Origin: Candidatus Naiadarchaeum limnaeum
GTDB taxonomy: Archaea; Undinarchaeota; Undinarchaeia; Undinarchaeales; Naiadarchaeaceae
Direction: 5' to 3'
Assembly (NCBI GenBank): GCA_014189685.1
Contig: DVAB01000024.1
Coordinates: 1 to 36,525 of the forward strand
DNA: 36,525 bases
The notes beneath the pieces were generated by a model. It did no database searches. It saw nothing but the letters and a program-made list of their open reading frames with translations, and was not told where the DNA came from. How positions within the stretch are numbered: the first letter of the stretch is position 1; every line of letters begins with the position of its first letter. Both the position numbers and the translations under genes were made by a program. Shown here one piece after another: positions 491-8,160 of this stretch.

Positions 491-1972
491 TTATTTCACC
501 AGCTTCCATTTTGCCCCTTCTTCCGTATCCTCTACTTTGATTCCAATATTTAAAAGCTCTTTTCTTAGCGCATCAGCATCTACAAAATTCTTATTTTGTC
601 TGAATTGCTCTCTAAGTACAAGCGCAGCTCTCATCAATGATTCTAAATCCCCTTCCTTAATTTCATAATCCGGCGAGAATTTTTTTATAATCTGAGTAAC
701 TCTTTCCTCTAAGCCTTTTACTAGCTGTGGCTCTGCTCTCATTTCTAAAATTCCAAGAACCTTGTCTAGCTCGAAGATTGCCTTTAAAATAGCAGCAGCA
801 TTCCTCTGGCTTATTTTTTTAGCATCAATTAGCTTGTTTATATCGCGAATAAAATTGAAAAGTGTTGCAAGTGCGCGAGGCATATCCAAATTGTCATCCA
901 TAGCCTTTTCAAACTCAGCGCACAGTTTTTTGAGCAATCTGTCTGCCTTTGGATTATTTTTAGTCCCTTTTGCCTCTTCAAGCCTATCAACAAAAGTAAA
1001 GATTCTCCCAACAGCATTTTTCGCAGCTTCCAATTCCTCAAATGTAAAGTTTAATTTTTGTTTGTAATGCGCAGAAAGCAGAGCATATTTTATTGCGCTG
1101 GCTGCATACCCTTTGTTTAGCAAATCGCGCAGCGTGTAAAAGTTTCCGAGAGATTTTGACATTTTCTTATTATTTACAAGCAAATGCTCGCAGTGTACCC
1201 AATATTTTACAAGTTTCTTTCCAGTAGTGCCTTCGCTTTGCGCTATCTCATTTTCATGATGTGGAAAAATCAGATCAACCCCTCCTGTATGGATATCAAA
1301 AGTTTTTCCCAAATGGCGCATGCTCATTGCGCTGCACTCAATGTGCCATCCTGGACGACCTTTCCCAATATCGGTTTCCCAAAAAATATTGCCATCTTGG
1401 AAGTCCCATGCTTTCCAAAGCGCGAAATCCTGAGCTTCCTCTTTTGTATATTGATCCTGTTTTACGCGGGCGCCGGCTTTTAATTTTTTAATTTGCAGGC
1501 CAGAGAGTTTTCCATATTTTTTGAATTTTCTAATGTTGTAATAAGTTGAGCCATCCTCTCCTTGGTATGCAATTTTTTTCTTTTGTAATTGCTTTATCAA
1601 TCCAATCATATCATTGATGTGCTCTGTTGCGCGGGGGTAGATATCAGCACGTTTTATATTCAAAGTTCTTATGTCCTCAAAAAAAGCATCCACATATTTT
1701 TTTGTAAATTCGTTTAATGGAACTTTTAATGCATGCGCGCCGCGAATTGTTTTATCATCGATATCTGTTAGATTCATTACTTGCTTTACTTTGTATCCTT
1801 TGTGCTCCAAATATTTTCTTAAAATATCTTGGAAAACATATGCACGGAAATTTCCGATATGCGCGTAATCATAAACAGTCGGGCCGCAACTGTACATTAA
1901 AACTATTTTGTCCTTTAGCGGTTTGAAGGGTTCTTTCTTTTTTGTTAGGGTGTTATAGAGTTTAAGCGTCAT
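491..1972 (-). CDS. cysS: Cysteinyl-tRNA synthetase
   Basis: 493 aa; class I signatures (YDYAHIGNFRAYVFQDILRKYL, KMSKSLGN) and CysRS motifs (GWHIECSAMS, DIHTGGVDLIFPHHENEIAQ). Confidence 0.97.
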   Translation of the reverse strand: MTLKLYNTLTKKKEPFKPLKDKIVLMYSCGPTVYDYAHIGNFRAYVFQDILRKYLEHKGYKVKQVMNLTDIDDKTIRGAHALKVPLNEFTKKYVDAFFEDIRTLNIKRADIYPRATEHINDMIGLIKQLQKKKIAYQGEDGSTYYNIRKFKKYGKLSGLQIKKLKAGARVKQDQYTKEEAQDFALWKAWDFQDGNIFWETDIGKGRPGWHIECSAMSMRHLGKTFDIHTGGVDLIFPHHENEIAQSEGTTGKKLVKYWVHCEHLLVNNKKMSKSLGNFYTLRDLLNKGYAASAIKYALLSAHYKQKLNFTFEELEAAKNAVGRIFTFVDRLEEAKGTKNNPKADRLLKKLCAEFEKAMDDNLDMPRALATLFNFIRDINKLIDAKKISQRNAAAILKAIFELDKVLGILEMRAEPQLVKGLEERVTQIIKKFSPDYEIKEGDLESLMRAALVLREQFRQNKNFVDADALRKELLNIGIKVEDTEEGAKWKLVK

Positions 1973-2256
1973 CGGAGTAAAACTTTAAAAAATATTACAA
2001 TTCGCCCGCTTCTTTCAATATATCTGATGCCAAGTTCAGGGTATGACACCTTTTTAAGAATTGCATTTGCTTCTTCAACATTTTTTCTCAATATTTCCAA
2101 TAAATTCACCACCTCTTCCTTAGCAATTAAATGCTGATAGTGAAATCTTATCTTTATACCCTTCTTTAGAATCTCCATTATTTTTTCCGGCATACTCCTT
2201 GGCAACTTCCTTAATTGTCTTATCGTGTCCATTTGGATGAGAATAACCACTCTCAT
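1969..2256 (-). CDS. Small hypothetical protein, ATGA-overlapping with cysS
   Basis: 95 aa ORF whose TGA overlaps the cysS ATG; GAGG Shine-Dalgarno-like motif and TATTATAAAAA box upstream on the minus strand. Confidence 0.6.
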   Translation of the reverse strand: MRVVILIQMDTIRQLRKLPRSMPEKIMEILKKGIKIRFHYQHLIAKEEVVNLLEILRKNVEEANAILKKVSYPELGIRYIERSGRIVIFFKVLLR

Positions 2257-2297: not shown

Positions 2298-2340
2298 AGC
2301 GGAGGGTGGGATTTGAACCCACACTCGCTAGGCGGCGAGT
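2298..2340 (-). pseudogene. tRNA-like 3' half (T-arm + 3' acceptor strand + U73), tRNA-Cys paralogue
   Basis: Minus strand GTGGGTTCAAATCCCACCCTCCGCT differs from the tRNA-Cys 3' end GTGAGTTCAAATCTCACCCTCTGCT at 3 of 25 positions, two of them compensatory in the T-stem; no matching GCGGAGG 5' acceptor strand nearby. Confidence 0.6.
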
Positions 2341-2446
2341 ACGCCAGACTACATTGGGGACATTCGCAGTTAACTTTGCAATTTGTCATTTGTGAAGCGA
2401 AGTCCCCAAATAGGCTTATTTCTGCTTCTATTTTTGATACTTTGAA
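2320..2446. repeat. Dispersed double-hairpin element, copy R1
   Basis: CACTCGCTAGGCGGCGAGT hairpin, then TTGGGGACATTCGC...CTTTGCAATTTGT...GCGAAGTCCCCAA (2354-2409), then TTATTTCTGCTTCTATTTTT; similar to copies at ~4070 and ~7920. Confidence 0.65.
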
Positions 2447-2520
2447 AGCAGAGGGTGAGATTTGAACTCACATAGACACGCTCTGCAGGCGTGCGCATGA
2501 CCGTGTTCTGCCACCTCTGC
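2447..2520 (-). tRNA. tRNA-Cys(GCA)
   Basis: Acceptor GCAGAGG/CCTCTGC, anticodon arm CACGC-CTGCAGA-GCGTG, T-arm GTGAG-TTCAAAT-CTCAC, discriminator U73 as is typical for tRNA-Cys. Confidence 0.95.
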
Positions 2521-2596
2521 ACAATAGTTTCTAAACTAGTTCCCGAAAACTCCAAAGAAATCAAATGAGAACTAGGGCTTGCCTATGCTTTTGCTT

Positions 2597-2632
2597 CTAG
2601 CAGCAACAACAGCACAGACGAATTTGATTCAT
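2597..2632 (-). CDS. Putative polycysteine leader peptide MNQIRLCCCCC*
   Basis: ATG AAT CAA ATT CGT CTG TGC TGT TGT TGC TGC TAG on the minus strand; TTAAATAATA TATA-like box about 21-30 nt upstream of ATG; 76 nt upstream of tRNA-Cys. Confidence 0.45.
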   Translation of the reverse strand: MNQIRLCCCCC

Positions 2633-2658
2633 GATAATAATAGTATGTTTTTTATTAT

Positions 2659-3096
2659 TTAAGCATAACCTTTTTTTGTATCCTCAGATTTTGGCTGCTC
2701 AATCACAACGCTCGGCAGCTGGATTGGCATTGGTAAGCGCGCTTCTTTTGCAAGCCACAAAGCCTGCAGAGTTGAGGCGCGTAGGATTACATTTTGCACT
2801 TCCTGGAAGGCATTCATATCCTTGAAAGTTGTTCTCCCCTTTTCTTCCTTTATCGCGTCTGTGAGTTTAGGGGCTATGTATATCACTCGGCCACCAATTT
2901 TAATATCTCCTACATCAGGGGTGTAATTAGTCGTGAATTCAAAATGTACAACAATTGCCTCTACCCCGGAAACATCTTTCTTTTCAATTTTCTTTATGGC
3001 GCTGTTGCTATTTATCTTGAAATCTGCAGCAGCCGGTGTCTGGTGTTCCTTTCTGTTCGCCTCCAGCTTCTCAAATATAACATCTATGATTGGCAT
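2659..3096 (-). CDS. Hypothetical protein (possibly SecB-like fold)
   Basis: 145 aa ORF with alternating beta-rich pattern and C-terminal LPMPIQLPSV; family assignment is a guess. Confidence 0.65.
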   Translation of the reverse strand: MPIIDVIFEKLEANRKEHQTPAAADFKINSNSAIKKIEKKDVSGVEAIVVHFEFTTNYTPDVGDIKIGGRVIYIAPKLTDAIKEEKGRTTFKDMNAFQEVQNVILRASTLQALWLAKEARLPMPIQLPSVVIEQPKSEDTKKGYA

Positions 3097-4057: not shown

Positions 4058-4069
4058 AAAGGTTCCTTT

Positions 4070-4165
4070 CTCGCCAGGCCGCGAGTAGGCCAAGGGACGT
4101 TCGCTCGCTTTGAAATTTGTGAATCGCGAAGTCCCTTAATCTTCCGCTTCTATTTATCCTACTTT
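4070..4165. repeat. Dispersed double-hairpin element, copy R2
   Basis: CTCGCCAGGCCGCGAG hairpin, then AAGGGACGTTCGC...GCGAAGTCCCTT (4092-4137), then CTTCCGCTTCTATTT; parallels R1. Confidence 0.6.
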
Positions 4166-8005: not shown

Positions 8006-8160
8006 CGCCGAGGACAGGATTTGAACCTGCAACCCCTTGCGGGAGCAGTTATCTCGTTATTTTAACACTCGGTGTCCAACATCTTTATGAGCTTGCTCAC
8101 AAGCGCTTCGGACACCTCGTGTTTCGAGACTGCCGCGATACCGGATTCTGCCACCTCGGC
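8006..8160 (-). tRNA. tRNA-Ser(CGA) with intron in the anticodon loop
   Basis: Acceptor GCCGAGG/CCTCGGC with G73; anticodon stem GCAGT/ACTGC; loop CTCGAA|A interrupted after position 37 by ~72 nt (about 8051-8122) containing GTGTCC...GGACAC; long variable arm TCCCGCAAGGGG; T-arm GCAGG-TTCAAAT-CCTGT. Confidence 0.9.

Follow-up and report, generated by a model that had tools for sequence, protein, structure and literature searches.

The polycysteine mini-ORF that stands before the tRNA-Cys gene of Candidatus Naiadarchaeum limnaeum is, in our judgement, quite probably a leader peptide serving, by ribosome-mediated attenuation, as a sensor of charged tRNA-Cys, its translation, the stalling of the ribosome and the output step being inferred. 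The signature of this type of control is a terminal run of codons for a single amino acid, located at a presumed transcription start and heading genes for the charging or the synthesis of that amino acid. Two hallmarks of an attenuator are present: a short ORF with a run of cysteine codons upstream of cysteine genes and, in seven leaders, a predicted hairpin that a ribosome stalled on these codons could disrupt. The evidence is restricted to sequence and folding, without transcript, ribosome-profiling or expression data, and the genomes are mostly metagenome-assembled.

In the window, by which we mean the whole stretch of 36,525 nt that was analysed, the mini-ORF occupies positions 2597-2632 of the minus strand, with its ATG at 2632 and its TAG at 2599-2597. 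Its codons (ATG AAT CAA ATT CGT CTG TGC TGT TGT TGC TGC TAG, minus strand 2632-2597) specify MNQIRLCCCCC, and the five cysteine codons followed by a stop that an earlier note on this DNA had described are indeed found there. The first gene 3' of the leader is that of tRNA-Cys (GCA; 2447-2520, minus strand), the mini-ORF lying upstream at a spacing of 76 nt. Between tRNA-Cys and cysS is a 95-aa ORF to which no family could be assigned (1969-2256, minus strand), and which overlaps the start of cysS, the gene of cysteinyl-tRNA synthetase (491-1972, minus strand; PF01406, E = 5e-112). A TATA-like box, CTTAAATA (2656-2663, minus strand), starts at -31 from the ATG of the mini-ORF, which is the spacing expected for a leaderless transcript; the note had pointed to this placement, and was equally right in cautioning that the box overlaps the stop of the preceding gene (145 aa).

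Comparison within the own phylum involved six genomes: that of the window (G000), G001, G002 and three members of family f4. In G001, the CysS of which is 63% identical, MKLNLCCCC and a stop are followed by tRNA-Cys, then by a cysteine synthase gene (cysK, assigned by NCBIfam TIGR01136, E = 4e-91), then by cysS. In G002 (CysS 46% identical), MEPKTIECCCCCC and a stop are followed by tRNA-Cys, then cysS. In the three f4 genomes, which belong to the same order, tRNA-Cys is not linked to cysS and the polycysteine mini-ORF is absent, so that within the order the mini-ORF and the linkage of tRNA-Cys with cysS are either both present or both absent. Loss of the cysteine run in close relatives that keep the synteny would, according to the earlier note, have refuted its proposal of an archaeal leader sensing cysteine or Cys-tRNA; the run is kept in both same-order relatives that have the linkage, and the proposal gains support from this conservation with synteny as well as from recurrence of the run in two further archaeal phyla.

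Mini-ORFs of the form ATG-X(2-12)-Cys(4-6)-stop, a few with CCC only, were found in about 14 archaeal genomes from three phylum-level groups, where they head tRNA-Cys, cysS and/or cysK. The carriers are G000, G001 and G002 in the own phylum, G330, G013, G169 and G188 in a second one, and further G266, G520, G412 (leader L090), G595, G336 and the Woesearchaeota leaders L088 and L095; the named hosts of L088, L090 and L095 are all Woesearchaeota. The peptides count 9-13 residues, none of which is conserved besides the cysteine run, and this run always ends at the stop. A survey anchored on cysS covered 174 archaeal and bacterial loci over at most 1.5 kb upstream (in places 2.5 kb). ORFs of 45 aa or fewer with at least four consecutive cysteines were seen eight times on the cysS strand of these 174 upstream regions and never on the opposite one, and all eight end in the cysteine run: MEPKTIECCCCCC, MLKAPCCCCC, MIRQDYYRCCCCC (with the close relative MIRQDYYRCYCCC), MNQIRLCCCCC, MDLCCCC (MNTMDLCCCC if read from an upstream ATG), MKSRTFCCCC, MQTQTKNVKCCCC and MKLNLCCCC. 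Mini-ORFs upstream of cysS with at least three cysteines and a TATA box in position were likewise distributed 8 to 0 between the strands. The bacterial upstream regions of the survey contained no mini-ORF with four or more cysteines. MKLNKYFKFCCC in G336 is likely a weaker case.

Two scans made without anchoring on a gene, one of 394 archaeal relatives for (TGY)4-5 followed by a stop, the other of 371 genomes from a different archaeal phylum for (TGY)4TAR, provide a sample only, the loci inspected being among the matches listed. A perfect TATA 8-mer at -34 to -28 of the ATG, which is met by 1.3% of 18,390 ATGs as background, served as the promoter criterion. Among the matches listed there were 20 ATG-started mini-ORFs with four or more cysteines: seven had both the TATA box and a cysteine gene, none the TATA box only, two the cysteine gene only and 11 neither (Fisher p = 4.6e-4 for the association in these 20). 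Within those same listed matches, every TATA-positioned mini-ORF (7/7) thus precedes tRNA-Cys, cysS or cysK. Taking the leaders together, in 10 of 12 a perfect 8/8 TATA box begins some 30 nt before the ATG, TSS data being absent; for G169 the distance was counted from the second in-frame ATG. The scans added G169 and G188 (cysK, then tRNA-Cys), G520 (tRNA-Cys, then cysS), G412 (before cysS, with a peptide identical to that of L090) and G595 (before cysK). MCLRRFFCCC in L251, considered as a further case, was rejected as due to chance, having no TATA box and being apparently located within a gene. In L456 (1213-1261, minus strand; G542) we also observed MKSITNNIFVNCCCC followed by a stop, without a good TATA box and with a cysK-like gene at most 1.5 kb downstream, a possible case.

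In the leader of the window, the RNA can be folded into two hairpins. Hairpin A (2582-2619, minus strand) combines an outer stem (2619-2611 / 2590-2582) with an inner one (2606-2602 / 2595-2591). The outer stem is 9 bp long, GUCUGUGCU:AGCAUAGGC; its 5' arm reaches the first cysteine codons and its 3' arm, which includes a conserved CATAGG motif, lies wholly beyond the stop, so that the loop side encloses most of the cysteine codons and the stop. The TTGCT/AGCAA stem that had been noticed earlier does exist, but it is merely the inner part of this hairpin, the outer stem having been overlooked. Hairpin B (2536-2575, minus strand; arms 2575-2567 / 2544-2536), between the mini-ORF and tRNA-Cys, is the 9-bp hairpin with one G-U pair already proposed, and we find it as described; weaker hairpins are at its place in G001 and G002. 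It is followed by UUUAGAAACU, without a U-run, and no bacterial-type intrinsic terminator is therefore seen in the window leader.

Hairpin A is kept in position with a different sequence in G001, G002, G013, G169, G188 and G330, the predicted pairing joining, in all seven leaders, the codons around the first cysteine codon to an ATAGG motif that is conserved downstream of the stop. The stems are AACCUGUGC:GCAUAGGUU in G001, AACCUA:UAGGUU with UGAAU:AUUCA in G002, AGGACCU:AGGUCCU in G330, CCAUGGACCU:AGGUCCAUGG in G013, GGCCUGUUGC:GCAAUGGGCC in G188 and UGGCCUGUUGC:GCAAUAGGCCA in G169, and a core position exchanges A-U for G-C (ACCU:AGGU, GCCU:AGGC, GUCU:AGGC). Compared with shuffled 3' sequence, the duplex energy gave p = 0.0015-0.0275 in 7/7 leaders from two phyla; these values must be taken as descriptive, because the windows were picked after viewing the folds and the leaders within a phylum are related. 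The same shuffled-sequence test found no significant hairpin A in the Nanoarchaeota-type leaders L088, L095, L090, L247 and L267, and in G330 and G188 it is missing when the longer leader is folded to minimum energy, other pairings being preferred.

Masking the stretch that a stalled ribosome would cover brings the modelled probability of hairpin A in the window leader from 1.00 to 0.00. Hairpin B forms with or without this mask, so that no complete switch is visible there, and a mask at the stop codon likewise removes most of hairpin A. The cysK leader of G169 (L356) has four segments with alternative pairings, the third resembling the first and the fourth, which holds the Shine-Dalgarno sequence of cysK, covering it when paired. 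With the ribosome masked, the 3' arm of hairpin A is predicted to give up the 1:2 pairing (P 0.99) in favour of 2:3 (P 1.00) as long as the fourth segment is incomplete; at equilibrium the 3:4 pairing prevails in every state of the full-length RNA. The cysK leader of G013 (L358) places a 13-bp hairpin over AGGAGG. Equilibrium folding of the full cysK leaders thus revealed no switch, the Shine-Dalgarno hairpin prevailing in G169 and G013 despite masking, and switching in these two would consequently have to be kinetic.

We may picture the process as follows. Transcription would start at the ATG of the mini-ORF or next to it, and the leaderless transcript would be translated at once. With ample Cys-tRNA(Cys), the ribosome would clear the cysteine codons and leave at the stop, hairpin A would form behind it, and the genes that follow (tRNA-Cys, joined in relatives by cysK and cysS) would be held down. 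With too little of it, the ribosome would stall on the run, where it would cover hairpin A on its 5' arm, and these genes would be expressed. These steps of translation, stalling and output are inferences built upon what can be read in the genomes, namely the ORF, its conservation, the position of the TATA box and the gene association, and upon hairpin A as obtained by folding. Since a tRNA is not translated, the output of leaders that come first to a tRNA gene must be transcription elongation or termination, or else RNA processing; most likely the stalled ribosome would block premature termination, of the FttA or the U-tract type. There is no evidence for a site or a factor of premature termination; polarity is established in archaea, where it is likely to act via FttA (review PMC12548453), and we infer that it offers a route. 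In leaders that come first to cysK, alternative pairing could expose or hide the Shine-Dalgarno sequence. That leaderless polycysteine decoding controls termination before tRNA-Cys in at least three phylum-level archaeal groups, making of it a self-regulated tRNA gene, with a Shine-Dalgarno version before cysK, is a generalization we put forward only tentatively, rating its chances below even.

Could the run be a chance trinucleotide repeat in a non-coding leader? This genome has 23 matches to TGYTGYTGYTGY, two of them within the run of the mini-ORF, hence 22 (TGY)4 runs, the mini-ORF being the only case of five TGY codons plus stop among the matches listed. Such runs being common, the significance rests on the conserved setting and not on the run itself; the majority of the unanchored sample (11/20, among the matches listed) is unlinked to cysteine genes. 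The caution voiced earlier is thus fair for the run taken alone, which is not beyond chance, but it fails when confronted with its setting: the strand bias of 8:0 upstream of cysS, the presence of all seven TATA-linked cases at cysteine genes among the matches listed, and the fact that the residues preceding the run show no relationship from one group to the next, that the run abuts the stop and that TGC and TGT are mixed, which together do not make a simple trinucleotide repeat. On the sequences compared, conservation already contradicts this explanation, to which we give hardly any credence. The polycysteine peptide might instead be the functional product, for example binding metal or involved in redox processes and made together with the cysteine genes. 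Consecutive cysteines could bind metal, and our data do not exclude it, but the lack of conservation outside the run, the length of 9-13 aa and the invariable end at the stop make this very improbable.

A more serious competitor accepts that the mini-ORF is translated in a cysteine-dependent way and dispenses with the RNA switch: ribosomes on the cysteine run would shield the leader from termination or decay, in a polarity-like manner, and hairpin A would be incidental. The Nanoarchaeota-type leaders suit it well, as they share the ORF and the TATA box without a significant hairpin A, and their distance to the tRNA is sometimes as short as about 25 nt; so does the polarity established in archaea, likely via FttA (PMC12548453). 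We hold it to be unlikely, yet by no means negligible, as it leaves aside the occurrence of hairpin A in seven leaders from two phyla, with pair changes that preserve the stem, and the full set of mutually exclusive pairings in G169. Another matter is the reach of the element in the window. The earlier warning of a possible separate promoter for cysS stands: a TATA-like box, TATTATAAAAA, near 2285 is at promoter distance from the 2256 ATG of the 95-aa ORF that overlaps cysS. Control of cysS by the leader is thus uncertain, and the leader may mainly affect tRNA-Cys in this genome. That it controls tRNA-Cys only, cysS being transcribed separately from this box, is a substantial possibility to which we give somewhat less than even weight: 624 nt separate the mini-ORF stop from the cysS start, with a repeat element in the interval, but in G001, G002, G520 and G330 no gap of this kind separates cysS from the rest of the tRNA-Cys unit.

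Several side observations concern repeats and tRNA-like sequences. A dispersed element is present in the window at 2302-2440 and 4060-4160 (both minus strand) and also in L042, L043, L044, L045 and L049, several copies being close to tRNA genes; copies in the own genome were found by similarity. Its layout comprises a AAAATAGAAGCAGAA-like start, a hairpin (GGCCTATTTGGGGC...GCCCCAATGTAGTCC type, with a loop near TTCACAAATTTCAAAG) and a second hairpin module. The idea that TAGAAGC, the stop of the mini-ORF with the following AAGC, borders a dispersed repeat found at 2424 and 4146 was dropped: within the window this heptamer is no more frequent than chance predicts, and relatives conserve the mini-ORF. 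Positions 2300-2360 (minus strand) resemble the 3' half of a class II tRNA, with a variable arm ACTCGC/GCGAGT, a T-arm GTGGGTTCAAATCCCAC and an acceptor CCTCCGC, without an adjoining 5' half and without an ARAGORN or Rfam call; it looks like a split tRNA half, a fragment or an integration remnant. L043 (1649-1890) carries a tRNA-Met-like gene with an intron of about 200 nt that contains one such hairpin element and a C/D-box-like TGATAGTCTGA stretch, called neither by ARAGORN nor by Rfam at gathering threshold. At 8006-8160 of the window (minus strand) Rfam reports a tRNA above its cut-off (35 bits) that ARAGORN does not call and that a long insertion or an intron seems to interrupt.

Attenuation by leader peptides, a mechanism familiar from textbooks on bacteria, requires transcription and translation to be closely coupled. 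The proposed archaeal leader has in common with the trp, his, leu and ilv attenuators a short leader, a run of regulatory codons, genes for the amino acid concerned and a hairpin around the run, the 5' arm of which a stalled ribosome could cover; it differs from them by the absence of a visible hairpin-plus-U-run intrinsic terminator, by a tRNA gene as first target and by the archaeal transcription machinery. With translational attenuators of the erm type it shares an alternative hairpin over the Shine-Dalgarno sequence of the next gene, as predicted in G169 (in G013 the case is less clear), whereas the signal is a codon run and tRNA charging, not a drug, and the comparison is inapplicable to leaders heading a tRNA. 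As T-box riboswitches do, it would sense the charging of one tRNA and control aminoacyl-tRNA synthetase or biosynthesis genes, sensing being proposed via translation and not via direct tRNA binding; Rfam scans of the window returned no T-box, and tRNA matches were all they contained of note. Leaderless polycysteine short ORFs of mycobacteria are reported to be cysteine-responsive attenuators (Canestrari et al., 2020, doi 10.1111/mmi.14498; as cited in PMC9094748). The likeness lies in a leaderless (here predicted) short ORF that contains a cysteine run, heads an operon and is proposed to respond to cysteine, and the difference in the archaeal host, the genes headed (tRNA-Cys, cysS, cysK), the run abutting the stop and the leader RNA. 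The anatomy is alike, no shared ancestry has been shown, and peptides of 9-13 aa are too short to trace descent. The literature searched, limited to open-licence papers, yielded no example of leader-peptide attenuation in archaea. With a conserved codon-run leader in archaea, coupling, termination under ribosome control and feedback at the level of tRNA become directly testable on a defined sequence; such a leader also provides a rare regulatory handle on uncultivated archaea with small genomes. If attenuation by the cysteine run is confirmed, this would be an unusual instance of a tRNA gene controlled by the very codon that its tRNA reads.
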